Below, piece after piece: positions 1 to 56,815 of a stretch of 64,000 nucleotides of DNA (its first letter is position 1; each line of letters opens with the position of its first letter). Location of the stretch: contig JAFUOD010000018.1 in assembly GCA_017472735.1 (NCBI GenBank), positions 35,604 through 99,603 of the forward strand, given 5' to 3'. The notes beneath the pieces were generated by a model. It saw only the letters and a list, made by a program, of their open reading frames with translations, made no database searches and was not told where the DNA came from. Made by a program: the position numbers and the translations under genes. This DNA is from Oscillospiraceae bacterium. GTDB lineage: Bacteria > Bacillota > Clostridia > Oscillospirales > Ruminococcaceae.

Positions 1-612
1 CCCGGATGCACGATGGGCGAGGTCAACGAAGATCTTTGGCACAGAGTTGAAACTGTTGGCTCTGCTTTCCCCGGCGTTGAGTGCAAGATAATCGACCCGG
101 AAACAGGTGCAGAATTGCCCGACGGCGAAAACGGCGAATTTGTTGCCCGCGGCTTTAACATCATGAAAGGCTATTACAAAATGCCCAGAGCAACAGCTCA
201 GGCTATTGATAAAGACGGCTGGCTTCATTCAGGCGATATTTGCTGCCGCACGCCCGACGGTTATTTTAAGGTTACCGGCAGACTTAAGGATATGATCATT
301 CGCGGCGGCGAAAACCTCTACCCCAGAGAGATAGAAGAATTTTACCTCACTCACCCCAAGGTCGAGGATGTTCAGGTAGTCGGCGTGCCCGACAAGCGCT
401 ACGGCGAAGAAGCCTGCGCGTGGATAATTCTTAAGGACGGCGAGGAAGCCACAATTGAAGACATGGTTGAATACGGCAACGCAAACATGGCTCGTCACAA
501 GGTGCCCAGATACTTTATCTTCACAAAGACCTTCCCCATGAATGCCGCAGGCAAGATTTTAAAATATAAAATGCGTGAGGATTCGGTAACCGTTTTAGGT
601 ATTGAAAAATAA
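1..612 (+). CDS. AMP-forming acyl-CoA synthetase, C-terminal part (5' end outside window)
   Basis: The reading frame is open from the first base, so the gene starts upstream; about 203 C-terminal residues are visible. They contain the hinge and C-terminal lid of the ANL superfamily: SGDICCRTPDGYF, then GRLKDMIIRGGENLYPREIE, and near the end NAAGKILKYKMRED with the lysine (AAGK) used for adenylation. The family activates a carboxylic acid to acyl-AMP and then acyl-CoA. The lid motif resembles fatty-acyl/medium-chain CoA ligases and differs from the two fusion synthetases downstream, so it is a different subfamily. The substrate cannot be told from this end. A TIM-barrel hydrolase follows within about 15 bases, suggesting a shared transcript. 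Confidence 0.9.
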   Translation, partial: PGCTMGEVNEDLWHRVETVGSAFPGVECKIIDPETGAELPDGENGEFVARGFNIMKGYYKMPRATAQAIDKDGWLHSGDICCRTPDGYFKVTGRLKDMIIRGGENLYPREIEEFYLTHPKVEDVQVVGVPDKRYGEEACAWIILKDGEEATIEDMVEYGNANMARHKVPRYFIFTKTFPMNAAGKILKYKMREDSVTVLGIEK

Positions 613-627
613 TAAGGAATGATAAAA

Positions 628-1449
628 ATGCAGCATATAATCGATTGTCACTGTCATGTTTACCCCGATAAGATAGCCGAAAAAGCGGCAGAAGCTACGG
701 GTAAGTTTTACAGCTTGCCAATGGAATATAACGGTACGATCGGAACTGTTTTTGAAGAGGCTAAAAAGTCGGGCGTTTCGCACTGCGTAATATTCTCAGT
801 GGCAACAAAGCCCTCGCAGGTGCGCTCGATAAACGAATTTATTGCGGCAACTGTTGCAAAAAGCCCTGAGTTTTTCACAGGTCTGGGTGCGCTTCACCCC
901 GACAGCGAGGATATAGAGGGCGACATTGAGCATTTAATGTCGCTTGGCTTAAAGGGCGGAAAGCTTCACCCCGATATTCAGGCGTTTGAGATAGATAACG
1001 AGAAAAGCATGAAAATATGCTCGATCTGCGAGGAAAAAGGCTTGCCTGTTTTGTTCCACACAGGCGACCGCAGATATGACTATTCTAACCCTAACCGCTT
1101 AAAGCCCGTTTTGCAGGCTCATCCGAATTTAACGGTTATTGCCGCACATTTGGGCGGCTGGTCTGTTTGGGAGGATGCTGTTAAGGAACTTGCTCACTTT
1201 AAAAACCTTTATGTCGATTGTTCGTCAAGCTTGGCGTTTATGCCTCTTGAAAGAATTACCGAGATAATAAAAACCTTCGGCGCCGAAAAGGTGCTCTTTG
1301 GCACGGATTATCCTATGTGGAATATATCCGATGAGCTTGACAGATTCTCTCGCCTTGGTCTGAGCGACGAGGAAAGAGAGCTTATATTGTGCAAAAATGC
1401 ACAAAAGCTATTTGGTATAAAGCTTAATTGTGTCGAAAATAACGGTTGA
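628..1449 (+). CDS. Amidohydrolase-family TIM-barrel metal hydrolase (COG2159 type)
   Basis: A 273-residue protein of the amidohydrolase-2 family, whose members are hydrolases or decarboxylases. It opens with the metal-binding HxH motif (DCHCHVYPDK), continues with a conserved His in VLFHTGDRRYDY, a third in VIAAHLGGW, and ends with the catalytic Asp in VLFGTDYPMW. An ATG at 619 is also in frame, but the AAGGA ribosome site (614-618) touches it and sits 9 bases before the ATG at 628, so 628 is preferred. It probably forms an operon with the acyl-CoA synthetase upstream. The -35 box of the next promoter overlaps its stop codon. The substrate is unknown. Confidence 0.8.
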   Translation: MQHIIDCHCHVYPDKIAEKAAEATGKFYSLPMEYNGTIGTVFEEAKKSGVSHCVIFSVATKPSQVRSINEFIAATVAKSPEFFTGLGALHPDSEDIEGDIEHLMSLGLKGGKLHPDIQAFEIDNEKSMKICSICEEKGLPVLFHTGDRRYDYSNPNRLKPVLQAHPNLTVIAAHLGGWSVWEDAVKELAHFKNLYVDCSSSLAFMPLERITEIIKTFGAEKVLFGTDYPMWNISDELDRFSRLGLSDEERELILCKNAQKLFGIKLNCVENNG

Positions 1450-1478
1450 CAAACGGCTGTTTAATTTGATATTATAAT
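1446..1478 (+). promoter_or_regulatory. Promoter of the Ile T-box / acyl-CoA synthetase unit
   Basis: TTGACA at 1446-1451, followed 18 bases later by TATTAT (1470-1475), which overlaps TATAAT at 1473-1478. The -35 box overlaps the TGA stop of the preceding hydrolase gene (1447-1449). T-box leader sequence begins about 25 bases downstream. Confidence 0.75.
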
Positions 1479-1499
1479 AGCAATATATCACATTAAAGT

Positions 1500-1770
1500 A
1501 TAAAAGCTGTGACGAAGACGGAACTGTCGCACAAATATTTCTCAGCGAGTCGGGTTTGGTGCAAGCCGACAGATATTTGACACTTCCCATCACTTCCGAG
1601 CTGAAGATCCGAACAATGCGTTGTGTAGGGTTTTTCGTGACTGCTGCGTTAATGCATACGGCTTGTTTGAGCCTGAGCGGCGTGAGTGTTATTCACGCAA
1701 TTTGAGTGGTACCGCGGGTATGATTTTATCAGCTCGTCTCAAGAGAATTGAGGCGAGCTGTTTTATTTTT
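1500..1770 (+). promoter_or_regulatory. T-box riboswitch leader, predicted isoleucine (AUC) specificity
   Basis: Stem I opens with GTGACGAAG (K-turn and AG element) and closes with CACTTCCGAGCT. The specifier position just before that closing strand is ATC at 1589-1591, an Ile codon. Further on are the stem III hairpin (GTTAATGCATACGG) and the T-box antiterminator motif TGGTACCGCGG at 1707-1717; its UGGU bulge pairs with a tRNA ending ACCA. A Rho-independent terminator follows at 1731-1770 (AGCTCGTCTC pairs with GAGGCGAGCT, then a T-rich tract). Uncharged tRNA-Ile should therefore allow read-through into the synthetase gene. T-box identity is very secure; the specifier is read by alignment to the other three modules in this window. 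Confidence 0.93.
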
Positions 1771-1795
1771 ATCTTCACGAAAGGAGAAACGCAAA

Positions 1796-4069
1796 ATGAC
1801 AACCAACAACCAAACTTCTTATCAGCTTATGGAGATCGCTTCGCGAATTAAGGAAATGCGTGAGATCATGGGCTGGACTGCCTTGGAAATGGCACAGAAG
1901 ACCGAGGTTAGCGAAGAGGCTTATGTAACTTATGAAAATGCGGGTGCAGACCTGCCGTTTAGCTTTATTCACAAATGTGCGCTTGCTTTCGGCATCGACT
2001 TAACCGACCTTTTGGAGGGTAATAATCAGGCAAGGCTTTCTACATATACAGTAACCCGCAAGGGCAAGGGACAGAAGACCGCCAAGGAGGAAGGCATTGA
2101 TATTGCCAATCTTGCTCCTAAATTCCGTGATAAGATCGCCGAGCCTTATTGGGTCAAATATGAATATTCGGCGCAGCAGCAAACCCAGCCCATTCAGCTT
2201 GACACTCACTCGGGTCAGGAGTTCGACCTTATCATCAGCGGCAGCTTAAAGGTTCAGGTTGGCAACCACATTGAGGTCTTGCACGAGGGCGACTCGATCT
2301 ATTACAACTCGTCTGTTCCTCACGGCATGATAGCTGTAGATGGCGCTGACTGTGTGTTTGTGGCAGTTGTTTTGCCCGGCGAGGACACCAAGGAAGAAAC
2401 CGTTCGTTCGAGCGTTGTTAAGGCTGGCAGCTCGGAAAAGCTTATTGCCGAGAAGTTTGTTAAAACCGTCGAGGATGAAAACCATTGCTTAAAGAGCATT
2501 GAATTTAAAAACACCGACACATTTAACTTCGGCTTTGATATTGTTGATGAGATCGCAAACAAATATCCCGATAAGCTTGCAATGATCCACATTGATAAGA
2601 ATCACTTTGAAAGACGTTTTACCTTTAAGGATATGAAGCGCGCATCAAATCAGACAGCAAACTATTTAAAATCCCTTGGCATTAAGCGCGGAGACAAGGT
2701 AATGCTTGTTTTAAAGAGACATTATCAGTTCTGGTTTGCAATGGTTGCACTTCACAAGCTCGGCGCTGTTGCAATTCCTGCAACCAACCAGCTTAAAGAA
2801 CACGATTTTGAATACAGATATGAAGCAGCAGGCGTTAACGCAATCATCTGCACCGCCGACGGCGATGTTGCGGATATTGCCGCAAGAGCAGCTGAGAATT
2901 ACGGTCAGCCTATTACAAAGATAATGGTTGGCGGTGCAAGAGGGGATTGGCACGACTTCGATGCTGAATATAACCTCTTTACAGGTAAGTTCGACAGACC
3001 CGAGGATTGCTCGGCGGGATATGAGACTGCGCTTATGTTCTTTACCTCGGGCACAACAGGCAACCCCAAAATGGCAGCACACGCACACACTTATGCTTTG
3101 GGTCACTTTGTTACCGCAAAGTATTGGCACTGCTGTGAGCGTGAGGGCTTGCACCTTACCATCTCCGACACCGGCTGGGGCAAATCTCTTTGGGGCAAGC
3201 TTTACGGCCAGTGGCTCTGCGAGGGTGCAGTGTTCGTTTACGACTTCGACAGATTCGATGCAAGCGACATTTTGCCAATGTTCGCAAAATACCGCATCAC
3301 CACCTTCTGCGCTCCTCCCACAATGCTCAGAATGATGATCAAGGAAGACCTTTCAAGGTATGACCTTTCATCTATTCACCACATGACAACAGCAGGCGAA
3401 GCGCTTAACCCCGAAGTTTTCAGACAGTTTGAGGCGGCAACAGGCCTTCAGATAATGGAGGGCTTCGGTCAGACCGAAACCACCCTTGCCATTGCCAACC
3501 TTTGGGGTGACGTTCCCAAGCTTGGCTCGATGGGCAAGGCTAACCCTCAGTTCGATGTTGACATTGTTGACCCCGACGGCAACAGCCTGCCAAACGGCGA
3601 AGTTGGCGAGATCGTTATTCACACCGACAAGACTGTGCCCTGCGGATTGTTTAAAGAATACTACAGAGATCACGAAAAGACCTCGGACGCTTGGCACGAC
3701 GGACTTTACCACACCGGCGACACCGCTTGGCGCGATGAAGACGGCTACTTCTGGTATGTATCCCGTATCGACGATGTTATCAAGTCCTCGGGCTACCGCA
3801 TTGGCCCCTTCGAGATCGAATCGGTTATTATGGAATTGCCTTATGTTCTCGAGTGCGGCGTAAGTGCTGCCCCCGATGAGGTAAGAGGTCAGGTAGTTAA
3901 GGCAAGCATTGTTTTAACCAAGGGCACTCAGCCTTCTGACGAACTTAAGAAAGAGATCCAGCAGTATGTAAAGGATCACACCGCACCTTATAAATATCCC
4001 AGAATCGTCGTGTTTAAAGATGAATTGCCTAAGACCATCAGCGGAAAAATTCAGAGAAACAAGCTTTAA
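1796..4069 (+). CDS. XRE HTH + cupin + acyl-CoA synthetase fusion protein (Ile T-box controlled)
   Basis: A 757-residue, three-part protein. Residues about 11-75 are an XRE/Cro helix-turn-helix; about 120-200 are a cupin barrel (THSGQEFDLIISG, HEGDSIYYNSSVPHG); from about 240 to the end is a complete AMP-forming acyl-CoA synthetase with TSGTTGNPKM (about 416), GFGQTETT, YHTGDTAWRDEDGYF and the C-terminal SGKIQR with its catalytic lysine. An in-frame ATG at 1748 lies in the terminator hairpin; ATG 1796 has AAAGGAG 10 bases upstream and is chosen. XRE-cupin proteins are usually small free-standing regulators, so fusion to an enzyme suggests autoregulation or ligand sensing (inference). The Ile T-box and the neighbouring oxidoreductase suggest the substrate is a branched short-chain acid such as 2-methylbutyrate. 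The closest relative in view is the gene at 4452. Confidence 0.9.
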   Translation: MTTNNQTSYQLMEIASRIKEMREIMGWTALEMAQKTEVSEEAYVTYENAGADLPFSFIHKCALAFGIDLTDLLEGNNQARLSTYTVTRKGKGQKTAKEEGIDIANLAPKFRDKIAEPYWVKYEYSAQQQTQPIQLDTHSGQEFDLIISGSLKVQVGNHIEVLHEGDSIYYNSSVPHGMIAVDGADCVFVAVVLPGEDTKEETVRSSVVKAGSSEKLIAEKFVKTVEDENHCLKSIEFKNTDTFNFGFDIVDEIANKYPDKLAMIHIDKNHFERRFTFKDMKRASNQTANYLKSLGIKRGDKVMLVLKRHYQFWFAMVALHKLGAVAIPATNQLKEHDFEYRYEAAGVNAIICTADGDVADIAARAAENYGQPITKIMVGGARGDWHDFDAEYNLFTGKFDRPEDCSAGYETALMFFTSGTTGNPKMAAHAHTYALGHFVTAKYWHCCEREGLHLTISDTGWGKSLWGKLYGQWLCEGAVFVYDFDRFDASDILPMFAKYRITTFCAPPTMLRMMIKEDLSRYDLSSIHHMTTAGEALNPEVFRQFEAATGLQIMEGFGQTETTLAIANLWGDVPKLGSMGKANPQFDVDIVDPDGNSLPNGEVGEIVIHTDKTVPCGLFKEYYRDHEKTSDAWHDGLYHTGDTAWRDEDGYFWYVSRIDDVIKSSGYRIGPFEIESVIMELPYVLECGVSAAPDEVRGQVVKASIVLTKGTQPSDELKKEIQQYVKDHTAPYKYPRIVVFKDELPKTISGKIQRNKL

Positions 4070-4085
4070 AAAATTGGTTTTGGTG

Positions 4086-4114
4086 TTGACAATTATATAG
4101 GGACGTGGTATAAT
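4086..4114 (+). promoter_or_regulatory. Consensus promoter of the Val T-box operon
   Basis: TTGACA at 4086-4091 and TATAAT at 4109-4114, separated by exactly 17 bases: a perfect housekeeping promoter. It begins 16 bases after the stop of the upstream fusion gene and drives the second T-box leader. Confidence 0.88.
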
Positions 4115-4128
4115 ACTACAGTAAAGTG

Positions 4129-4408
4129 AAAAAGTGTTGACGAAGAAGGGTAGCTTCTTTTCCGGTTAAGAGAAACGGCGTTTGGTGCGAGCCGCCATCG
4201 GGGAATTGTTACTTGTAGCTTCCGAGCTGAGAGGAAGAAAGGTGTTTAACAAATACCGAGTAGACCCTTTCCGTGATTGCTGCGTTAATGCATACGGCTT
4301 GTATGAGCCTGAGGGGCGTGATTCACGCAATTTGAGTGGTACCGCGGGATATAATTTGTAATTATACTCGTCTCAAAGAAGAAATATCTTTGGGACGGGT
4401 TTTTGTTT
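4129..4408 (+). promoter_or_regulatory. T-box riboswitch leader, predicted valine (GUA) specificity
   Basis: The architecture matches the leader at 1500-1770 and the stem III-to-antiterminator part is nearly the same sequence, so the two leaders are duplicates. Stem I opens GTTGACGAAG and closes GCTTCCGAGC. The triplet in the specifier position is GTA at 4215-4217 (Val), followed by G rather than the usual A. The antiterminator motif TGGTACCGCGG is at 4337-4347 and the terminator at 4367-4408 (CGTCTCAAAGA pairs with TCTTTGGGACG, then a T tract). A register one base earlier would give a different triplet, so the Val call is good but less certain than the T-box call itself. Confidence 0.9.
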
Positions 4409-4451
4409 CTTTTTAAACTTCGCCCAAGGGTACAAAGAAAGGAAGAAAAGA

Positions 4452-6740
4452 GTGCAAAACACCGGAATTGAACTGAAGATTCTTGAAATGGCGGCAAGAA
4501 TAAGAGACCTTCGAGAGATCGTTGGGCTTACCACCGCCGAAATGGCGCTTAAAACGGGCGTATCCGAAGATGAATATATCGCCTGCGAAAACGGCAAACG
4601 CGACCTTAACTTTGCATTTTTATACAGATGTGCGCTTGCTTTGGGCGTTGACGTAACCGATATTATTGAGGGTGCTTCGCCCCGACTTGCAGGCTATACC
4701 GTAACCCGAAAGGGCGACGGACAAAGAATTGAGCAGGCACACGGCATGGTTTATTATAACCTCGCCTCTGCTTTTAAAAACAGGATCGCTGAGCCTTTGC
4801 TGGTCGTTTCGGCTTACAGCGATGAGGCGCAGAACGCCGATATTGAGCTTACCACCCACGAGGGTCAGGAATGTGACATTATTGTAAGCGGTGCGTTAAA
4901 AATTCAGATAGGCGACCACGTTGAAATTCTTAAAGAGGGCGACTCGATCTATTACGACTCTGATACCCCTCACGGAATGATTGCCGTTGGCGGAACTGAC
5001 TGTGTGTTCTATGCCATTGTTTTAAATCCTGCAGGTGAATCTATTGAAAAGATCACTCACGGCGGTGTCCGCGAGTTTACAGCACGTCCTTTAAAGACTC
5101 CCGAAAGAAAGTGGATCTATGAGGACTATATTGAAACAAAAGAAGATAAGAACGGAGTACTGGAAAAGATCTCGTTTAAAAACGAGCAAGGCTTCAACTT
5201 CGCCTTTGACCTTATTGACAGAATGGGCCGTGAACAGCCCGATAAGCTTGCACTTTTACATATTGATAAAAACCACGTTGAAAGACGCTTTACCTTTGCC
5301 GACATTAAGCGTGCTTCGAGCCAGACGGCTAACTATTTAAAATCCCTTGGAATTAAAAGAGGGGATAAGGTGCTTTTAATTTTAAAGAGGCACTATCAGT
5401 TCTGGCTTGTAATGATAGCTTTGCACAAGCTTGGCGCAGTTGCAATTCCCGCAACAAACCAGCTTAAAGAACATGATATATCGTACCGAATTAACAAAGC
5501 AGGCGTTAAAATGGTTATCTGCACTGCCGATGACGGCGTTGCCGAGCAGGTTGACATAGCCTCGAAGGAAACACCCACGTTAGAGACAAAGCTTATTGTT
5601 AACGGTCAGCGTGACGGCTGGAGAAGCTTCGATGAGGAATATCCTCTTTACACAGGCAAGTTTGACAGACCCGATGATTGCCCCTGCGGCGACGAGCCGA
5701 TGCTTATGTATTTCACCTCGGGCACAACGGGCAACCCCAAAATTGCAACCCACAACTTTATGTATCCTTTGGGCCATTTTGTTACCGCTAAGTATTGGCA
5801 CTGCGTTAACCCCAACGGCTTGCACTTAACCGTTTCCGATTCGGGCTGGGCAAAATGTGCATGGGGCAAGCTTTACGGTCAGTGGCTTTGCGAGGCTCCC
5901 TTGTTTGTTTACGACTTCGACAGATTTGATGCCGAGGATATTTTGCCGATGTTCGCAAAATATCAGATAACCACCTTCTGCGCTCCTCCCACGATTTTAA
6001 GAATGCTTGCAAAGCAGGATATTTCAAAGTATGATTTATCCTCTATTGAACACATGACAACAGCAGGCGAAGCGCTTAACCCCGAAGTTTTCAGACAGTT
6101 TGAAAAAACCACAGGTCTTCAGATAATGGAAGGCTTCGGTCAGACCGAGACCACCGTTGCACTTGCAAACCTTGCAGGCATGAAAGCTAAGCTTGGTTCG
6201 ATGGGTAAGCCTGTTGCGCTTTATGATATCGACCTTGTTGACGCTGACGGCAAACGGGTTGACGATGGTGAGGTCGGCGAAATCGTTATTCACGTTGAAA
6301 ACGGTTCGCCCTGCGGCTTGTTCCGAGGATATTACCGTGACGAAGAAAAGACCAAGGAAGTATTCCGCGACGGACTTTACCACACAGGCGATACTGCATG
6401 GCGCGACGAGGACGGCTACTATTGGTATGTCGGCCGAGTTGACGACGTTATCAAGTCCTCGGGATATCGAATCGGTCCCTTCGAGATTGAAAACGTTATC
6501 ATGGAACTTCCATATGTTTTGGAATGCGGTGTTAGTGCCGCACCCGACGAGGTAAGAGGTCAGGTAGTTAAGGCAAGCATAGTTTTAACAAAGGGCACCG
6601 AGCCTACCGACGAACTTAAGAAAGAAATTCAGCAATATGTTAAATCGCGTACCGCACCTTATAAATACCCCAGAATTGTTGTATTTAAAGACGAGTTGCC
6701 CAAAACGACCAGCGGTAAGATTCAGAGAAATAAATTATGA
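4452..6740 (+). CDS. XRE HTH + cupin + acyl-CoA synthetase fusion protein (Val T-box controlled)
   Basis: A 762-residue paralogue of the gene at 1796 with the same order: XRE domain (about 12-75), cupin (about 125-205; THEGQECDIIVSG, EGDSIYYDSDTPHG), acyl-CoA synthetase (about 250-762; TSGTTGNPKI, GFGQTETT, YHTGDTAWRDEDGYY, SGKIQR). Long stretches of the synthetase part are identical to the paralogue; the HTH and cupin parts differ more. The start is GTG with AAAGGAAG about 8 bases before it. Its stop overlaps the next start (ATGA at 6737-6740), so it is translationally coupled to the P-loop gene and heads the oxidoreductase operon. With a Val T-box, isobutyrate is the likeliest substrate (inference). 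Confidence 0.9.
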   Translation: MQNTGIELKILEMAARIRDLREIVGLTTAEMALKTGVSEDEYIACENGKRDLNFAFLYRCALALGVDVTDIIEGASPRLAGYTVTRKGDGQRIEQAHGMVYYNLASAFKNRIAEPLLVVSAYSDEAQNADIELTTHEGQECDIIVSGALKIQIGDHVEILKEGDSIYYDSDTPHGMIAVGGTDCVFYAIVLNPAGESIEKITHGGVREFTARPLKTPERKWIYEDYIETKEDKNGVLEKISFKNEQGFNFAFDLIDRMGREQPDKLALLHIDKNHVERRFTFADIKRASSQTANYLKSLGIKRGDKVLLILKRHYQFWLVMIALHKLGAVAIPATNQLKEHDISYRINKAGVKMVICTADDGVAEQVDIASKETPTLETKLIVNGQRDGWRSFDEEYPLYTGKFDRPDDCPCGDEPMLMYFTSGTTGNPKIATHNFMYPLGHFVTAKYWHCVNPNGLHLTVSDSGWAKCAWGKLYGQWLCEAPLFVYDFDRFDAEDILPMFAKYQITTFCAPPTILRMLAKQDISKYDLSSIEHMTTAGEALNPEVFRQFEKTTGLQIMEGFGQTETTVALANLAGMKAKLGSMGKPVALYDIDLVDADGKRVDDGEVGEIVIHVENGSPCGLFRGYYRDEEKTKEVFRDGLYHTGDTAWRDEDGYYWYVGRVDDVIKSSGYRIGPFEIENVIMELPYVLECGVSAAPDEVRGQVVKASIVLTKGTEPTDELKKEIQQYVKSRTAPYKYPRIVVFKDELPKTTSGKIQRNKL

Positions 6741-7411
6741 TTAGCTTAAACCCAAAAAGAGTTACGCTTTTTGCAGGACATTACGGCAGCGGCAAAACGA
6801 ACATTGCTGTTAATTATGCGCTTGCTCTTAAGGATTTGGGAAAGAATGTTGTGGTTGCCGACCTTGACATTGTTAACCCTTACTTTAGAACAAAAGACAG
6901 TGCAAAAGAGCTAAACGAAAAAGGCATTGAGATTATAAGTCCCGAATTTGCAAACACAAATGTCGATTTGCCGGCACTGCCTGCGTCGGTTTACGGCGTG
7001 GTGCAAAACCGTTTAAGGCACGCTGTGCTTGATATCGGAGGCGACGACCGAGGCGCTTACGCCTTGGGAAGATATGCGCCTTATATTATGGAAGAAAATG
7101 ATTTTGAAATGATATTTGTCGCAAATTTCTTAAGACCTCTTACAAGAACCCCCGAAGAAGCCTTTGAGGTTATGAAAGAGATCGAACAGGCAGGGCATAT
7201 TCCGTTTACTGCAATTGTGAACAATTCAAACCTTGGCAAAGATACCGAGCCCGAAGATGTCGAAAAAACCGACATTTTGGCAAAACGCTTAAGCGAATTA
7301 AGCGGACTGCCGCTTTTGTTTACAAGCGCCGAGGAAAATGTTGCAAAACAGCTTACACTTAACAATGTTTTACCAATGAAGCTTCAAAAGAAGTATTTTG
7401 ATATTATTTGA
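6737..7411 (+). CDS. MinD/ParA/CobQ-like P-loop ATPase in the 2-oxoacid oxidoreductase operon
   Basis: A 224-residue soluble protein with a Walker A motif at residues 14-21 (GHYGSGKT), then VVVADLDIVNPYFRT, the usual switch/Walker-like segment of SIMIBI ATPases, and LDIGGDDRGAYALGRY. The fold is that of MinD/ParA/CobQ nucleotide-binding domains, but no membrane-targeting helix or Fe-S scaffold cysteine pair is evident. It overlaps the synthetase stop by four bases and lies 18 bases before the ferredoxin-subunit gene, so it belongs to the oxidoreductase operon. It might help with metal or Fe-S assembly or with regulation; its function is not known to me. Confidence 0.72.
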   Translation: MISLNPKRVTLFAGHYGSGKTNIAVNYALALKDLGKNVVVADLDIVNPYFRTKDSAKELNEKGIEIISPEFANTNVDLPALPASVYGVVQNRLRHAVLDIGGDDRGAYALGRYAPYIMEENDFEMIFVANFLRPLTRTPEEAFEVMKEIEQAGHIPFTAIVNNSNLGKDTEPEDVEKTDILAKRLSELSGLPLLFTSAEENVAKQLTLNNVLPMKLQKKYFDII

Positions 7412-7429
7412 CGAAAAGGAGAGATTTTT

Positions 7430-7636
7430 ATGGCAAAAGTAACATTTGCTACCGACGTTTGCAAGGGCTGTGGGCTTTGTGTTGACGCTTGTCCTAAGCA
7501 GCTTATTGTTCTTAGCAATGATAAAATCAACAAAAAAGGTCATTCCCCCGCAGAAATTACCGACCAGTCAAAGTGCATAGGCTGTGCTTTTTGTGCAACC
7601 ATGTGCCCCGACTGCGTTATTAAGGTCGAGAGATGA
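7430..7636 (+). CDS. vorD: 2-oxoacid:ferredoxin oxidoreductase, delta (2x[4Fe-4S]) subunit
   Basis: A 68-residue ferredoxin-like protein with two cluster motifs, CKGCGLCVDACP near the N-terminus and CIGCAFCATMCP near the C-terminus. This is the electron-transfer delta subunit of four-subunit keto-acid:ferredoxin oxidoreductases. The ribosome site AAAAGGAG precedes the ATG. The alpha gene follows after 22 bases. The vor name is used because of the branched-chain context; KOR or another 2-oxoacid enzyme is possible by sequence alone. Confidence 0.85.
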   Translation: MAKVTFATDVCKGCGLCVDACPKQLIVLSNDKINKKGHSPAEITDQSKCIGCAFCATMCPDCVIKVER

Positions 7637-7658
7637 TTGGAAAGGACGGACTTGAATT

Positions 7659-8720
7659 ATGGCAGAAAAAGTTTTAATGAAAGGTAACGAAGCTATTGCC
7701 GAGGCCGCTATTCGTGCAGGCTGCCGCCACTACTTCGGTTACCCCATTACCCCTCAGACAGAGCTTGCAGCTTACATGGCAAAAAGAATGCCCAAAATAG
7801 GCGGCGTTTTCCTTCAAGCCGAAAGTGAAGTCAGCGCAATCAACATGGTTTACGGTGTTGCAGGCACGGGCTTGCGTGTTATGACCTCGTCCTCCAGCCC
7901 CGGTGTATCTTTGAAGCAGGAGGGTATCTCTTACATCGCAGGTGCAGACTTGCCCGCACTTATTGTTAACGTACAGCGCGGCGGCCCCGGCCTCGGCGGT
8001 ATTCAGCCCTCGCAGTCCGATTACTTCCAGGCAACAAAGGGCGGAGGTCACGGCGACTATCACCTTATTGTTTTGGCTCCTGCTTCCGTTCAGGAGATGG
8101 CAGACCTCACAGCAACCGCATTTGACCTTGCTGACAAATACAGAATGCCTACCATGATTTTAGCTGACGGCACAATGGGACAGATGATGGAGCCTGTTGT
8201 TTTGCCCGAGCCTTATGAAGCAAAGAGCGAAAAGCCATGGGCTGTAACCGGCACAAAGTGCGAGCGTGAGCATAACATCATCAACTCGCTTTACTTAGTG
8301 CCCGAGGAGCTTGAAAAGGTTAACTTTGCAAGATTTGAAAAATACAAGACTATTGAAGAAAACGAGGTCATGTATGAAGAATATATGATGGACGACGCTG
8401 AATACTGCATCGTTGCATTCGGCATTGCGGCACGTGTTTCCAAAAACGCAATTAACGCCGCACGCGCAAAGGGCATCAAGGTCGGACTTATCCGCCCCAT
8501 CACCCTTTGGCCCTTCCCCAAGGATGTTATTAACAAGGCCGCTGATAAGGTTAAGGCATTTATCAGCGTTGAGCTTTCGATGGGTCAGATGATCGAAGAC
8601 GTTAAGCTTGCCCAAGAATGTAAAAAGCCTGTATATCTTTGCAACCGTGCAGGCGGCATGATCCCCGAGCCCGAGGAGATCATTGCAAAGCTTGAAGAAC
8701 TTGAAGGAGGTAACGACTGA
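7659..8720 (+). CDS. vorB: 2-oxoacid:ferredoxin oxidoreductase, alpha subunit (VorB-like)
   Basis: A 353-residue protein with the pyrimidine-binding transketolase domain of this family (GCRHYFGYPITPQTELAAYM near residue 20; SSSSPGVSLKQEGISYI near 75; QRGGPGLGG near 108) and the C-terminal domain II (IRPITLWPFPKDVI). The length fits the alpha subunit of four-subunit enzymes such as 2-ketoisovalerate oxidoreductase. It catalyses CoA-dependent oxidative decarboxylation of 2-oxoacids, or the reverse reductive carboxylation with reduced ferredoxin. Its stop TGA overlaps the ATG of the beta gene by one base. Confidence 0.88.
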   Translation: MAEKVLMKGNEAIAEAAIRAGCRHYFGYPITPQTELAAYMAKRMPKIGGVFLQAESEVSAINMVYGVAGTGLRVMTSSSSPGVSLKQEGISYIAGADLPALIVNVQRGGPGLGGIQPSQSDYFQATKGGGHGDYHLIVLAPASVQEMADLTATAFDLADKYRMPTMILADGTMGQMMEPVVLPEPYEAKSEKPWAVTGTKCEREHNIINSLYLVPEELEKVNFARFEKYKTIEENEVMYEEYMMDDAEYCIVAFGIAARVSKNAINAARAKGIKVGLIRPITLWPFPKDVINKAADKVKAFISVELSMGQMIEDVKLAQECKKPVYLCNRAGGMIPEPEEIIAKLEELEGGND

Positions 8721-9475
8721 TGGCAGTTGTATTTGAAAAAACCAAGGCACTTACCGATGCACCCTTGCACTATTGTCCCGGCTGCACTCACGGTATCATT
8801 CATCGCCTTGTTGCCGAAGCTATTGACGAGCTTGGCGTTTTGGGCAAAACCATTGGTGTTGCACCTGTTGGATGCTCGGTAATGGCATATAACTACTTCG
8901 CCTGTGACATGGTTGAGGCGGCACACGGCCGTGCACCCGCTGTTGCTACCGGATTAAAAAGAGCATTGCCCGAAAACGTTATCTTTACATATCAGGGCGA
9001 CGGTGACCTTGCTTCTATCGGTATGGCTGAAACAGTTCACGCCGCTACAAGAAACGAAAACATCACTGTAATTTTTGTTAACAATGCAATTTACGGCATG
9101 ACCGGCGGCCAGATGGCTCCTACCTCTTTGCCCGGTCAAGTTACTCAAACCTCGCCTTACGGCAGAGATGTTAAGACCGTTGGCTTCCCTATCAGAGTCA
9201 GCGAGATGCTCTCGGCTTTGGACGGCCCCGAATATATTGAAAGAGTTGCAGTTAACAACGTTAAAAATGTTAAGGCAGCTAAAAAGGCTATTAAAAAGGC
9301 TTTTGAAAACCAGATCAACGGCAAGGGCTTCTCTCTTATTGAGGTTGTGTCCTCTTGCCCGACAAACTGGGGCATGACACCTAAAAAGGCTTTGGAATGG
9401 ATAGATACCAACATGATTCCTTATTATCCTTTGGGTGTTTATAAGGACAGAAGCGCTGTAAAGGAGGAAAAGTAA
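8720..9475 (+). CDS. vorA: 2-oxoacid:ferredoxin oxidoreductase, beta (TPP-binding) subunit
   Basis: A 251-residue subunit with the conserved YCPGCTHGIIHRL start and the TPP-binding motif GDGDLASIG...NNAIYGMTGGQ (about residues 94-133). Four-subunit numbering calls this beta. Its C-terminus carries SSCPTNWGMTPKKALEWI, typical of branched-chain or 2-oxoglutarate-type beta subunits. It overlaps the alpha gene and lies two bases before the gamma gene. Confidence 0.88.
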   Translation: MAVVFEKTKALTDAPLHYCPGCTHGIIHRLVAEAIDELGVLGKTIGVAPVGCSVMAYNYFACDMVEAAHGRAPAVATGLKRALPENVIFTYQGDGDLASIGMAETVHAATRNENITVIFVNNAIYGMTGGQMAPTSLPGQVTQTSPYGRDVKTVGFPIRVSEMLSALDGPEYIERVAVNNVKNVKAAKKAIKKAFENQINGKGFSLIEVVSSCPTNWGMTPKKALEWIDTNMIPYYPLGVYKDRSAVKEEK

Positions 9476-9477
9476 TT

Positions 9478-10017
9478 ATGGCAACTAACAACATCCTCAT
9501 TGCAGGTTTTGGCGGACAGGGCGTTTTGTTTGCAGGCAAGTTTTTGGCATATAAAGGTTTGCTTGAAGAAAAGGAAATCTCGTGGCTTCCTTCTTACGGC
9601 CCCGAAATGCGCGGCGGTACGGCTAACTGCTCGGTAATCATCAGTGACACTCCTGTTGGTTCGCCCATTGTTTCCACCCCCGACGTTTTGATGGTTATGA
9701 ATCTCCCCTCGCTTGATAAATACGAGGCAGCCGCAGCTAAGGGCGCAAAGGTGTTCGTCGATTCGACCCTTATTACCCGCAAGCTTGTGCGCGACGACGT
9801 TGACGCTTATTACATTCCCGCTACTCAAATGGCTAAGGATTTGGGAATCCCCACCCTTGCAAACATGATTATGGTTGGCAAGGTTATTAAAGAGGCAGGC
9901 GTTGTTTCGTTTGACAACATGGTTGACTCGCTCAAAAAGGTAGTTTCGGCAAAGCGTGCCGAGCTTTTGGAGCTTAACCTTAAGGCTATCGAAGCAGGAT
10001 ATAATTATATCGGCTAA
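9478..10017 (+). CDS. vorC: 2-oxoacid:ferredoxin oxidoreductase, gamma subunit
   Basis: A 179-residue gamma domain beginning NILIAGFGGQGVLFAGK with the signature WLPSYGPEMRGGTANCSV near residue 40. It completes the delta-alpha-beta-gamma set. It is translated from ATG with GGAGG two codons into the upstream end (AAAGGAGGAAAAGTAATT). No acceptor subunit other than the ferredoxin gene is encoded here. Confidence 0.88.
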   Translation: MATNNILIAGFGGQGVLFAGKFLAYKGLLEEKEISWLPSYGPEMRGGTANCSVIISDTPVGSPIVSTPDVLMVMNLPSLDKYEAAAAKGAKVFVDSTLITRKLVRDDVDAYYIPATQMAKDLGIPTLANMIMVGKVIKEAGVVSFDNMVDSLKKVVSAKRAELLELNLKAIEAGYNYIG

Positions 10018-10046
10018 AGCACTTGATAAAATTTTAAAAATGTGAT

Positions 10047-10088
10047 AGTGTGAAATAAGCCGGCGATTTATCCCGCTTATTTCACACT
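10047..10088 (+). repeat. 14-bp perfect inverted repeat between the oxidoreductase genes and ilvE
   Basis: AGTGTGAAATAAGC (10047-10060) and its exact complement (10075-10088) flank a 14-base loop. No T tract follows on either strand, so it is not a standard intrinsic terminator. It may be an mRNA stabilising stem, an attenuating stem or an operator. Confidence 0.7.
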
Positions 10089-10128
10089 TGGCATTTAACA
10101 AGTAATTCTCTTTTGGAGGTTGAATATT

Positions 10129-11196
10129 ATGCTTAACATTAGAATTGAAAAAACACAAAACCCCAAAGCAAAGCCCGAAAAAGGTGCACCTTTAGGATTC
10201 GGTCACATTTTTACCGACCATATGTTTGTAATGAACTATGAAGAGGGCAAGGGCTGGTTCGATCCAAGAGTCGTACCCTTTGAGAATATCTCTTTGTCTC
10301 CTGCTTCAATGGTGTTCCACTACGGTCAGGAAATGTTTGAGGGCTTAAAGGCTTATAAGGGCGAGGATGGTCAGATTTACCTCTTTAGACCCGAAATGAA
10401 CGCTAAGCGTGCAAACGCTTCTAATGAGCGTCTTTGCATTCCTGAAATTCCCGAGGAAGATTTTGTTCAGGCTGTTAAGGCGGTTGTTGACGTTGACAGA
10501 GATTGGGTACCCGAAGAAGCTGGCACCAGCCTTTATATCCGTCCATTTGTTATCGCAACCGATAACTTCTTGGGCGTTGCGCCCTCTAAAACCTATTTGT
10601 TTATGGTGATCCTTTCTCCTTCGGGAGCTTATTACGCAAGCGGTTTGGCACCTGTTGGTATCTGGATCGAGGATGAATATGTAAGAGCAGTAAAGGGCGG
10701 TATTGGCTATGCTAAGACCGGCGGCAACTACGCAGCATCCTTGGCAGCACAGGTTAAGGCTCATGACGGCGGTTACAGCCAGGTTTTGTGGCTTGACGGT
10801 GTTGAGAGAAAGTATATTGAAGAAGTAGGCGCAATGAACATTGTGTTCAAAATTTCGGGCAAGATCGTTACACCTGCGCTTAACGGTTCCATTCTTCCCG
10901 GCATTACCCGAAACTCGGTGCTTAAGCTTTGCCGTGACTGGGGCTATGAAGTTGAGGAGAGAAAGATATCGGTTGACGAGCTTGTTGAAGCCGCACACAA
11001 CGGCACTCTTGAAGAAGTTTTCGGAACGGGTACCGCTGCTGTTGTTTCGCCCGTTGGCAAGTTAAGATATAAAGACGATGTATTCGCTATCGGCGATGGC
11101 GGCATTGGCGAGCTTACACAAAAGCTTTATGATGAGATAACCGGCATTCAGTGGGGCAAGAAGGCTGACCCCTATGGCTGGAGACAGACGGTTTAA
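10129..11196 (+). CDS. ilvE: Branched-chain-amino-acid aminotransferase
   Basis: A 355-residue class IV aminotransferase. Family marks are FHYGQEMFEGLKAYK (about residue 65), RPFVIATDNFLG, the PLP lysine in YAKTGGNYAAS (about residue 200), LWLDGVERKYIEEVG and LPGITRNSVLKL. It transfers amino groups between glutamate and 2-oxo acids of Val, Leu and Ile, the last step of both the salvage route upstream and the de novo operon at 32888. A TTG at 10120 is in frame, but the GGAGGT box at 10115-10120 fits the ATG at 10129. It may be read through from the Val T-box operon; no separate promoter was seen. Confidence 0.92.
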   Translation: MLNIRIEKTQNPKAKPEKGAPLGFGHIFTDHMFVMNYEEGKGWFDPRVVPFENISLSPASMVFHYGQEMFEGLKAYKGEDGQIYLFRPEMNAKRANASNERLCIPEIPEEDFVQAVKAVVDVDRDWVPEEAGTSLYIRPFVIATDNFLGVAPSKTYLFMVILSPSGAYYASGLAPVGIWIEDEYVRAVKGGIGYAKTGGNYAASLAAQVKAHDGGYSQVLWLDGVERKYIEEVGAMNIVFKISGKIVTPALNGSILPGITRNSVLKLCRDWGYEVEERKISVDELVEAAHNGTLEEVFGTGTAAVVSPVGKLRYKDDVFAIGDGGIGELTQKLYDEITGIQWGKKADPYGWRQTV

Positions 11197-32354: not shown

Positions 32355-32376
32355 TATAACACAAGTTTAATAAAGA

Positions 32377-32559
32377 TAAAGGCTATGACGAAGAATGGTC
32401 ATGGAGAAAAGCAGTGCAGAGAGCTGATGGTTAGTGCAAATCAGCATGCTGTATATCCTTGTCCTCTCACTTCCGAGCCGGAAGCCTGAACAAAAGTTAA
32501 GTAGGGCGACCCATGTATGCTATGTTAGTGCATAGAGGTTGATAGACTTCGATCAAACG
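32377..32559 (+). promoter_or_regulatory. T-box decoding module A, predicted leucine (CUC), lacking its own antiterminator
   Basis: Stem I opens AAAGGCTATGACGAAG and closes CACTTCCGAGCC; the specifier triplet is CTC at 32466-32468 (Leu). The downstream stem (TATGC/GCATA, GTATGCTATGTTAGTGCATA) is also present. The sequence then runs into module B without a TGGTACCGCG motif or a terminator; only the small TTGAT/ATCAA stem lies between. Confidence 0.88.
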
Positions 32560-32841
32560 AAAGGCTATGACGAAGACGGAATCTATAAGTGATTTCTCAG
32601 AGAGTCGGGGGCGGTGCGATCCCGATAAATAACTGTAGAATTTCCCATCCCTTCCGAGCCGGAGGTCCAAAAGGCTTAACACCCAGTAGGCGCCTCCCGA
32701 GTATGCTGCGTCAGTGCATAGAAGTTAACAGACTTCGAAGAGGTGGCGGATTATATATCCGCAATTTGAGTGGTACCGCGAGTGCAATGAATTTACACCC
32801 GTCTCAAAGCAATTAAAAAGCTTTGAGGCGGTTTTTGTTTT
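32560..32841 (+). promoter_or_regulatory. T-box decoding module B, predicted isoleucine (AUC), with the operon's single antiterminator/terminator
   Basis: It starts with the same AAAGGCTATGACGAAG as module A and closes CCTTCCGAGCC; the specifier is ATC at 32647-32649 (Ile). The TATGC/GCATA stem follows, then the antiterminator motif TGGTACCGCG (32771-32780) and terminator (CGTCTCAAAGC pairs with GCTTTGAGGCG, then GTTTTTG, 32799-32841). The UGGU bulge fits tRNAs with discriminator A, which suits both tRNA-Ile and tRNA-Leu. Confidence 0.93.
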
Positions 32842-32887
32842 GCCTTAGAGCGAAATGAGTACAATTATTCGGAAAGGCGGAATGAAA

Positions 32888-56649: not shown

Positions 56650-56697
56650 TAAAAAATTAAGGGCGCACTTATCCCTTTAAAAAAGATAAGTACACCC
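56650..56697 (-). terminator. Riboswitch-controlled terminator before purE
   Basis: On the minus strand GGGTGTACTTATC (56685-56697) pairs with GATAAGTGCGCCC (56661-56673), followed by TTAATTTTTT. The left arm is also the 3' end of the aptamer (CTGGGTG), so ligand binding and termination exclude each other. Confidence 0.88.
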
Positions 56698-56766
56698 AGA
56701 CGGTCGGCTGAAAGATCCTTTGCTTCATTGTGTCGATTCACATTTACCCGTCAGTCGCAAAGGCTA
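56692..56766 (-). promoter_or_regulatory. ZTP (pfl) riboswitch aptamer
   Basis: On the minus strand the conserved 5' part GCGACTGACGGG (56747-56758) is followed by a short hairpin (TGTGAATCGACACA) and the 3' signature CCGACCGTCTGGGTG (56693-56707); ACGG pairs with CCGT. This matches the pfl motif that binds ZTP/ZMP (AICAR phosphates), signals of 10-formyl-THF shortage. Binding should prevent the terminator and switch on purE-purL. Confidence 0.85.
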
Positions 56767-56815
56767 TAAAAATATAAATTCTAAGCCGTCATTAAAGACC
56801 ACTTATCATATACCA

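Follow-up and report, generated by a model that had tools for sequence, protein, structure and literature searches.

INTRODUCTION

Why should genes for acyl-CoA ligases stand behind RNA leaders that sense amino acids? The question is raised by a locus within a stretch of 64,000 nucleotides (G000:C16:35604-99603, the window) that is part of the 1.94-Mb draft genome of an Oscillospiraceae bacterium. Here two genes for AMP-forming ligases, each preceded by a T-box leader, are followed by genes for a P-loop protein, a 2-oxoacid:ferredoxin oxidoreductase (VOR) of delta-alpha-beta-gamma layout and the branched-chain amino-acid transaminase IlvE (Table 1). T-boxes raise expression upon amino-acid shortage. 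An earlier reading of the letters alone (the sequence-only reading) had proposed that this run of genes salvages branched-chain fatty acids into isoleucine and valine, and that its direction is anabolic. The analysis reported here leads us to a related answer, to which we assign a probability of roughly 0.84: judging from sequence comparisons, the locus would belong to a group of salvage modules that sense tRNA and turn branched short-chain acids from the environment into branched-chain amino acids. Gut bacteria of plant-eaters appear to rebuild Ile, Val and (probably) Leu from branched fermentation acids under the control of RNA sensors, each of which seems to respond to a shortage of the amino acid that its own route makes.

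RESULTS

T-box specifiers are linked to the type of the downstream gene

Both leaders of the window match the Rfam T-box model RF00230 across all 219 model positions. Their scores lie below the gathering value of 93, and a scan of the window at the Rfam gathering thresholds lists a ZTP riboswitch only and neither of the two leaders. In stem I the register NNN-N-CUUCCGAGC reads AUC-A-CUUCCGAGC in leader 1 and GUA-G-CUUCCGAGC in leader 2. The promoter- and terminator-like sites of both leaders are at the top of their lists, in a region where the total numbers of such sites are near those of shuffled sequences. The terminators fold with -22.2 (T-box 1) and -19.1 kcal/mol (T-box 2), and 0 and 1 of 200 shuffles, respectively, were as good. 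The antiterminators carry the 7-nt bulge with UGGN and are mutually exclusive with the terminators; their energies are ordinary, 27 and 5 of 200 shuffles being as good. The draft genome contains tRNA-Val(UAC) and tRNA-Leu(GAG), and RF00230 finds 13 T-box leaders in it at E up to 0.001.

The specifiers were then compared over 142 loci, made up of 62 regions (60 from relatives and 2 of the window's own genome) and the best 80 contigs of a longer list; the titles of 41 of these 80 contigs give a ruminant or horse host, and those of the others give no usable host. When specifiers were read by regular expression, 17 of 160 ligase open reading frames (ORFs) had no T-box and several were ambiguous; this procedure was superseded by a stem-I covariance model, R1, built from 46 leaders. 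The structure of R1 was supplied by us: RNAalifold alone gave the apical helix only, and the two basal helices follow the Rfam layout. In the stem-I pairing of R1, 97.2% of cells are paired and 44 cells have changed on both sides, compared with 9.1 in shuffles. Such changes occur in 6 of the 10 pairs (3.2 in shuffles), and the number of further pair types is ordinary (14 versus 12.5). When the 142 loci were searched with R1, 181 matches were obtained, including all 46 training leaders and, among these, both leaders of the window.

The 143 leaders before fused ligases read AUC (74), GUA (60), GUC (7) or GUG (1), with one misaligned (L068), which makes AUC or GUN in 142/143. Before genes for LeuA-like proteins (24 leaders) we read CUC 20 times and CUG three times, with one misaligned (L166). 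CUC was found in 4/4 leaders before fusions of a TIM barrel with an AMP-ligase (TIM-ligases), so that CUC or CUG stands in 27/28 leaders of these two gene types. Three leaders precede ORFs for a helix-turn-helix (HTH)-cupin protein (AUC once, GUA twice) and one precedes an unfused ligase (GUA). The remaining six matches have no annotated target, and two of them are a double sensor before ilvA. Specifier and downstream gene type stay linked over the 142 loci. The two T-box-controlled synthetases of the sequence-only reading, with Ile (AUC) and Val (GUA) specifiers, are upheld by the full-length RF00230 matches as well as by R1.

A Gly/Ala site separates Ile-type from Val-type ligases

Both ligases of the window are fusions of HTH, cupin, AMP-binding and AMP-binding_C domains; the N-terminal HTH-cupin part is absent from the sequence-only reading. 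We aligned 160 near full-length fused ligases, of which 73 have an Ile leader, 68 a Val leader, one an unread leader and 18 no leader by R1. At 8 alignment columns the Ile-type and Val-type proteins have no residue in common. Seven of these columns belong to the HTH-cupin region, and the ligase domain has a single one: column 467 in the numbering of ligase 2, with Gly in 73/73 Ile-type and Ala in 68/68 Val-type proteins. In alignments with Protein Data Bank (PDB) entries this column, which follows the GW of DSGW (GW-x), holds Gly in 3ETC and Ile in ACSM2A and in the acetyl-CoA synthetase 7kds. We take it to correspond to Val310, presumably an acetate-pocket residue, of Salmonella Acs, and a smaller pocket in the Val-type enzyme would fit isobutyrate.

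The best PDB match of ligase 2 is 3ETC (E 1.1e-185), the structure of MacsMa, an enzyme that prefers 2-methylbutyrate according to the excerpted text of PMC10455477. Two residues that are invariant in the fused-ligase alignment A1, W449 and G563, fit Trp259 of MacsMa and the Gly that replaces the pocket Trp of Acs (Trp416 site), where the residue roles are those of the same excerpt and the numbering was mapped by us via the alignment. The Gly/Ala split and the Gly of MacsMa support what had been predicted from the leaders, namely that the Ile-controlled enzyme would use 2-methylbutyrate and the Val-controlled one isobutyrate. Unfused T-box ligases, about 50% identical, agree with the rule: L080 combines AUC with Gly and L091 combines GUA with Ala, although the L091 leader is weak (34.9 bits) and the regular expression gave a second specifier reading for it.

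The HTH-cupin parts (1796-2440 and 4452-5096 in the window) form two types that match the Ile and Val leaders, and a tree of this region, with 141 labelled rows, contains a single switch between the Ile and Val labels. Within-genome ligase pairs (n = 42) have a median identity of 48% in the HTH-cupin part and 90% in the C-terminal segment of the ligase. Gene conversion between the two ligases, which we suspected, fits a segment comparison for residues 225-440 of L154 only, and not for L166. In more distant relatives HTH-cupin is a separate gene. Three loci (L085, L087 and L092) show P-loop-VorDABC followed by separate genes for HTH-cupin and a MacsMa-like ligase, and no T-box was found in the stretches fetched for them. 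This arrangement is perhaps an unfused ancestor or a parallel system.

The oxidoreductase and IlvE follow the ligases in relatives

In the window the VorDABC set is complete: the alpha subunit scores above the NF005507 cut-off, and beta and gamma were assigned by Pfam and gene order. IlvE passes two curated cut-offs (NF009897, 501.6 bits with a cut-off of 307; TIGR01123, 413.6 with a cut-off of 250.05). Two ligases are present in 53 of the 107 fused-ligase loci, in the order Ile then Val in 41, Val then Ile in 1 and partly or wholly unread in 11. VorA lies within 9.5 kb downstream in 68/107 fused-ligase loci and in 46/53 two-ligase loci, and IlvE was found within 12 kb in 37/53 of the latter. 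In single-ligase relatives the Ile leader stands directly before the gene run. The order P-loop gene, oxidoreductase, ilvE had been read correctly from the letters, and the neighbourhood of T-box, synthetase and VOR for which a genome search had been suggested does recur.

The P-loop gene lies at most 2.5 kb from VorA in 71/71 mapped cases, including the three unfused-ligase loci. Its product (motifs GHYGSGKT and DLDIVNPYFRT) perhaps has a role in VOR maturation.

Genomes with two ligases mostly lack IlvC

We compared the occurrence of the modules with that of IlvC, using the profile PF01450, which detected the protein in 14/14 control genomes. In a sample of 247 genomes of the order (even sampling, requested completeness at least 90%) IlvC was present in 141. 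Two adjacent fused ligases were counted in 24 of these genomes, two of which have one partial copy; copies on separate contigs, as in G184 and G223, are uncounted. IlvC was detected in 2/24 two-ligase genomes compared with 139/223 others (p 2.4e-7, in a test that ignores relatedness). Those of the 24 that have no IlvC (22 genomes) come from 8 families, and the window genome belongs to the two that do have it. A similar result was obtained with the genomes behind the contig loci, selected largely because they carry two ligases and with completeness not reported, where IlvC was present in 4/50 and absent in 46/50. Among 27 ligase-bearing relatives it was present in 17. Two of the 27 have all three modules, that is, those for Ile, Val and Leu: G024, which is 100% complete and of the window's genus, and G057. 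Both lack IlvC. LeuA-like proteins, found in 46/247 genomes of the order sample, gave the same picture, IlvC being present in 6/46 genomes with and 135/201 without them (p 1.9e-11, relatedness again ignored).

For LeuB we used 34 genomes of our own choice, the 24 with two ligases and 10 with a single ligase. LeuB was above its cut-off in 2/24 and 9/10 of these, respectively, a softer count because the cut-off is reached in only 9/14 controls and 20/34 genomes have weaker matches, one of 263.9 bits (G215). LeuA-like proteins occur in 24/24 two-ligase genomes and in G049, a single-ligase genome without LeuB above cut-off that has IlvC and the Ile ligase only; they are present in 23/23 genomes without LeuB above cut-off and in 2/11 with it.

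A Leu T-box module lies just upstream of the window

A third T-box, with the specifier CUC (Leu), lies at C16:32032-32276 (RF00230, 111 bits), outside the DNA that the sequence-only reading covered, and is absent from it. It precedes the LeuA-like gene, which is followed by the gene for the TIM-ligase (an 822-aa TIM-barrel/AMP-ligase fusion) and that for an amidohydrolase. We aligned 32 homologues of the LeuA-like protein, one with a gap at RDG, to the window's true LeuA, and looked at the LeuA motifs RDG.Q and HxH, which we take to be catalytic metal ligands. RDG is kept in 0/31 assessable homologues and the HxH pair in 0/32; lone letters of the catalytic motifs survive in three (L161, L141 and L062). 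The best equivalog score of the protein is 259.8, below the cut-off of 532, and HMGL-like and LeuA_dimer domains were detected in 15/15 LeuA-like proteins scanned. The loss of the motifs suggests that the LeuA-like protein is probably a pseudoenzyme. The TIM-ligase is distant from MacsMa and has fatty-acyl and feruloyl-CoA synthetases as its closest solved structures. Its probable role is the activation of isovalerate, with the product passing to the same VOR.

Coordinates of the features are collected in Table 1. The Amidohydro_2 protein occurs repeatedly near such modules, in some relatives but not in all. A double-sensor T-box (window 32376-32850) precedes the ilvA-leuACDB-ilvBCD run; it has two stem I domains, CUC (Leu) and then AUC (Ile), with a common T-box/antiterminator and one terminator. 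The ZTP riboswitch (56687-56768, minus strand) lies upstream of an ORF that is PurE-like by eye.

Table 1. Features of the salvage locus, in window positions unless a contig is named
Feature	Position	Strand	Remarks
LeuA-like gene	G000:C16:32349-33737 (L014:6350-7738)		upstream of window
TIM-barrel (AP_endonuc_2) + AMP-ligase fusion, Leu module	3' end 1..612	+	start upstream at G000:C16:33747; 822 aa
Amidohydro_2 family protein	619..1449	+	
Sigma-70-like promoter, Ile leader	1446..1475	+	TTGACA-18-TATTAT, 11/12 matches
T-box leader 1, specifier AUC (Ile)	1500..1744	+	RF00230 91.9 bits, E 4.6e-19; R1 77.3 bits
Intrinsic terminator of T-box 1	1730..1760	+	overlaps 3' strand of antiterminator
Ligase 1, Ile-type HTH-cupin-AMP-ligase, 757 aa	1796..4069	+	predicted 2-methylbutyryl-CoA synthetase; Gly at GW-x site
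Sigma-70-like promoter, Val leader	4086..4114	+	TTGACA-17-TATAAT, 12/12 matches
T-box leader 2, specifier GUA (Val)	4128..4378	+	RF00230 73.6 bits, E 2.4e-14; R1 73.6 bits
Intrinsic terminator of T-box 2	4366..4400	+	
Ligase 2, Val-type HTH-cupin-AMP-ligase, 762 aa	4452..6740	+	predicted isobutyryl-CoA synthetase; Ala467 at GW-x site
P-loop (CbiA/ParA-like) protein	6737..7411	+	4-nt overlap with ligase 2; conserved beside VorDABC
VorD, ferredoxin-like delta subunit	7430..7636	+	two CxxCxxC clusters, motif read by eye
VorA (name used here), VorB-type alpha subunit of 2-oxoacid:ferredoxin oxidoreductase	7659..8720	+	NF005507 567.9 bits, cut-off 399
VorB, beta (TPP) subunit	8720..9475	+	Pfam TPP_enzyme_C above cut-off; below NCBIfam cut-offs
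VorC, gamma subunit	9478..10017	+	Pfam POR above cut-off; below NCBIfam cut-offs
IlvE, branched-chain amino-acid transaminase	10129..11196	+	first ATG; TTG ORF start 10120

DISCUSSION

The linkage of specifier and gene type, the Gly/Ala site and the rarity of IlvC among two-ligase genomes are consistent with the following course of events. Uncharged tRNA-Ile would cause antitermination in leader 1 and the synthesis of a 2-methylbutyryl-CoA synthetase, while uncharged tRNA-Val, acting on leader 2, would turn on not only an isobutyryl-CoA synthetase but also VorDABC and IlvE farther downstream. With CO2 and reduced ferredoxin, VOR would work in the reductive direction and carboxylate the two acyl-CoAs to 3-methyl-2-oxopentanoate and 2-oxoisovalerate, and IlvE would aminate these to Ile and Val. 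The Leu T-box module, with its degenerate LeuA homologue and its AMP-ligase, would probably activate isovalerate for this VOR.

Several observations weigh against this scheme. No VorA was found within 9.5 kb in 39/107 fused-ligase loci, comprising 22 with at most 6 kb of downstream DNA and 17 with more than 6 kb. In the window VOR lies behind the Val terminator, and a shortage of Ile alone would need read-through; tRNA-Ile(GAU) is missing from the tRNAs recovered in the draft genome. Ala at GW-x is no mark of isobutyrate enzymes alone, since the 4-hydroxybutyrate--CoA ligase 8biq has it too. Among unfused ligases that have no T-box, A, G, M or L occurs at this position, and we therefore do not extend the Gly/Ala rule to them. 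The tree of the ligase domain has 5 Ile/Val label changes, and counting unlabelled rows as a group of their own gives 6 and 9, and 10 and 13, changes; some rows have long branches. IlvC is also absent from 8 relatives with an Ile-type fused ligase only and from 84/223 genomes of the order sample without two ligases, and the softness of the LeuB cut-off has to be added. The window genome itself has ilvA, leuA, leuC, leuD, leuB, ilvB, ilvC and ilvD above cut-offs (32.9-43.9 kb), with leuB intact in a three-frame translation, and salvage therefore need not be the sole route there.

The same enzymes could be read in other ways. Both VOR and IlvE can in principle run either way, and an oxidative cluster might degrade branched-chain amino acids to acyl-CoAs in a Stickland-type process, with the ligases running in reverse or scavenging acids. 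T-boxes are induced on shortage, AMP-forming ligases consume ATP and gain none, and IlvC is lacking in most two-ligase genomes; on these three grounds we regard the anabolic direction as far the likeliest and the oxidative cluster as scarcely credible. Here the linkage of specifiers to genes and the Gly/Ala split also side with the sequence-only reading, which had judged the direction from the T-boxes, the ligase type and the oxidoreductase. Propionate is converted to Ile by reductive carboxylation in some anaerobes, and the Ile-controlled ligase might activate propionate, from which the oxidoreductase would make 2-oxobutyrate for the classical Ile route instead of 3-methyl-2-oxopentanoate. 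The adenylation step of MacsMa accepts propionate, as the excerpt of PMC10455477 reports, and IlvC, which that route requires, is retained by each of the 16 relatives from the window's genus that have a single ligase, a fact that also tells against the preferred scheme. The absence of IlvC from 22/24 two-ligase genomes and from 46/50 genomes behind the contig loci, and a Gly site as in the 2-methylbutyrate enzyme, make the propionate route very improbable. A role of the ligases mainly in supplying isobutyryl- and 2-methylbutyryl-CoA primers for branched-chain membrane lipids, with VOR and IlvE incidental or linking pools, draws on MbcS, the nearest NCBIfam model (NF047394), whose enzyme, according to the excerpted PMC10026030, supplies fatty acid synthesis by activating 2-methylbutyrate and isobutyrate. 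Ligases 1 and 2 score 436.6 and 445.1 bits with this model, short of its cut-off of 850, which counts against salvage and the lipid role alike and for which reason we rejected an assignment of substrates by family name. The Ile and Val T-boxes, the presence of IlvE in the run and the absence of IlvC from most genomes with two ligases speak for amino acids as the products, and we consider the supply of lipid primers improbable. On these grounds all three candidates were rejected: the lack of IlvC speaks against each of them, the Ile/Val T-boxes against the lipid and catabolic roles and the Gly site against propionate.

The Leu module calls for more caution. The LeuA-like protein and the TIM-ligase may have some other leucine-responsive function, and their carriers may import leucine: the ligase is far from MacsMa and nearest to fatty-acyl and feruloyl-CoA synthetases, the LeuA-like protein is without catalytic motifs, and the association with LeuB is based on a cut-off that 9/14 controls reach. 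The CUC/CUG specifiers and the distribution of LeuA-like proteins relative to LeuB in the chosen genomes and to IlvC in the order sample favour isovalerate activation, and we hold another function to be unlikely, if to be reckoned with. A wider proposal starts from salvage in all three modules. Across a wide range of gut Clostridia they may have replaced the classical pathway, and the cells would then depend on isoacids supplied by neighbouring organisms; the HTH-cupin part may be a protein sensor of the Ile and Val ligase modules, and a dead LeuA may bind leucine and thereby regulate the isovalerate ligase. We put this forward tentatively, with the odds somewhat against it.

If salvage of branched acids is the function of these modules, a chemistry reported from the rumen half a century ago gains its genes, their control and a rationale in the genomes, and the need of many gut anaerobes for isoacids receives an explanation that can be tested. 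The T-box specifier becomes a readable prediction of the product of each ligase, and a single residue could be swapped as a test. The association with the loss of IlvC would allow dependence on cross-fed isoacids to be predicted from genomes. The sequence-only reading had known of no description of the combined regulation. Among the literature matches listed we likewise found no account of acyl-CoA ligases or VOR under the control of a T-box, nor of the gene set and the replacement of biosynthesis. Of three papers on T-boxes or riboswitches, the main texts of PMC2494555 and PMC3766115 mention neither acyl-CoA nor ferredoxin, and that of PMC12452182 none of acyl-CoA, AMP-binding and ferredoxin. 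The chemistry of isoacid carboxylation and the riboswitch class are known; the combination, its modularity and the replacement pattern, which we could not find described, are new as far as searched.

The nearest precedent is reductive carboxylation in rumen anaerobes, where isobutyrate gives Val, 2-methylbutyrate gives Ile and isovalerate gives Leu (Allison and co-workers, as related in the excerpt of PMC7356843). The three substrates and products and the kind of habitat are the same as for the modules described here, while genes and tRNA control, which the excerpted account does not give, are present here. MacsMa of Methanosarcina acetivorans, the best solved relative, has in common with the fused ligases Trp259 and the Gly at the Acs Trp416 site, as placed by alignment; its Gly at GW-x is that of the Ile-type ligases, whereas the Val-type ligases have Ala, and it is without the HTH-cupin part, the PDB match starting at residue 244. 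MbcS of Staphylococcus aureus acts on the same two substrates as predicted here and reaches about half its cut-off with our ligases, but it feeds branched fatty acids, and the main text of PMC10026030 has no T-box or ferredoxin; we file the ligases only as working like MbcS and MacsMa. The LeuA-like protein keeps the HMGL-like and the allosteric LeuA_dimer domain of 2-isopropylmalate synthase (LeuA) but not RDG/HxH. VorDABC has the same delta-alpha-beta-gamma layout as the oxidoreductases of NF005507, with its alpha subunit above the curated cut-off, and differs in its coupling to T-box ligases and, we infer, in a carboxylating direction. With the T-box leaders of amino-acid genes (RF00230) the leaders described here have stem I, specifier, antiterminator bulge and terminator in common, and they differ in their targets, which are acyl-CoA ligases and VOR, and in that Ile, Val and Leu leaders are paired one-to-one with three kinds of ligase.

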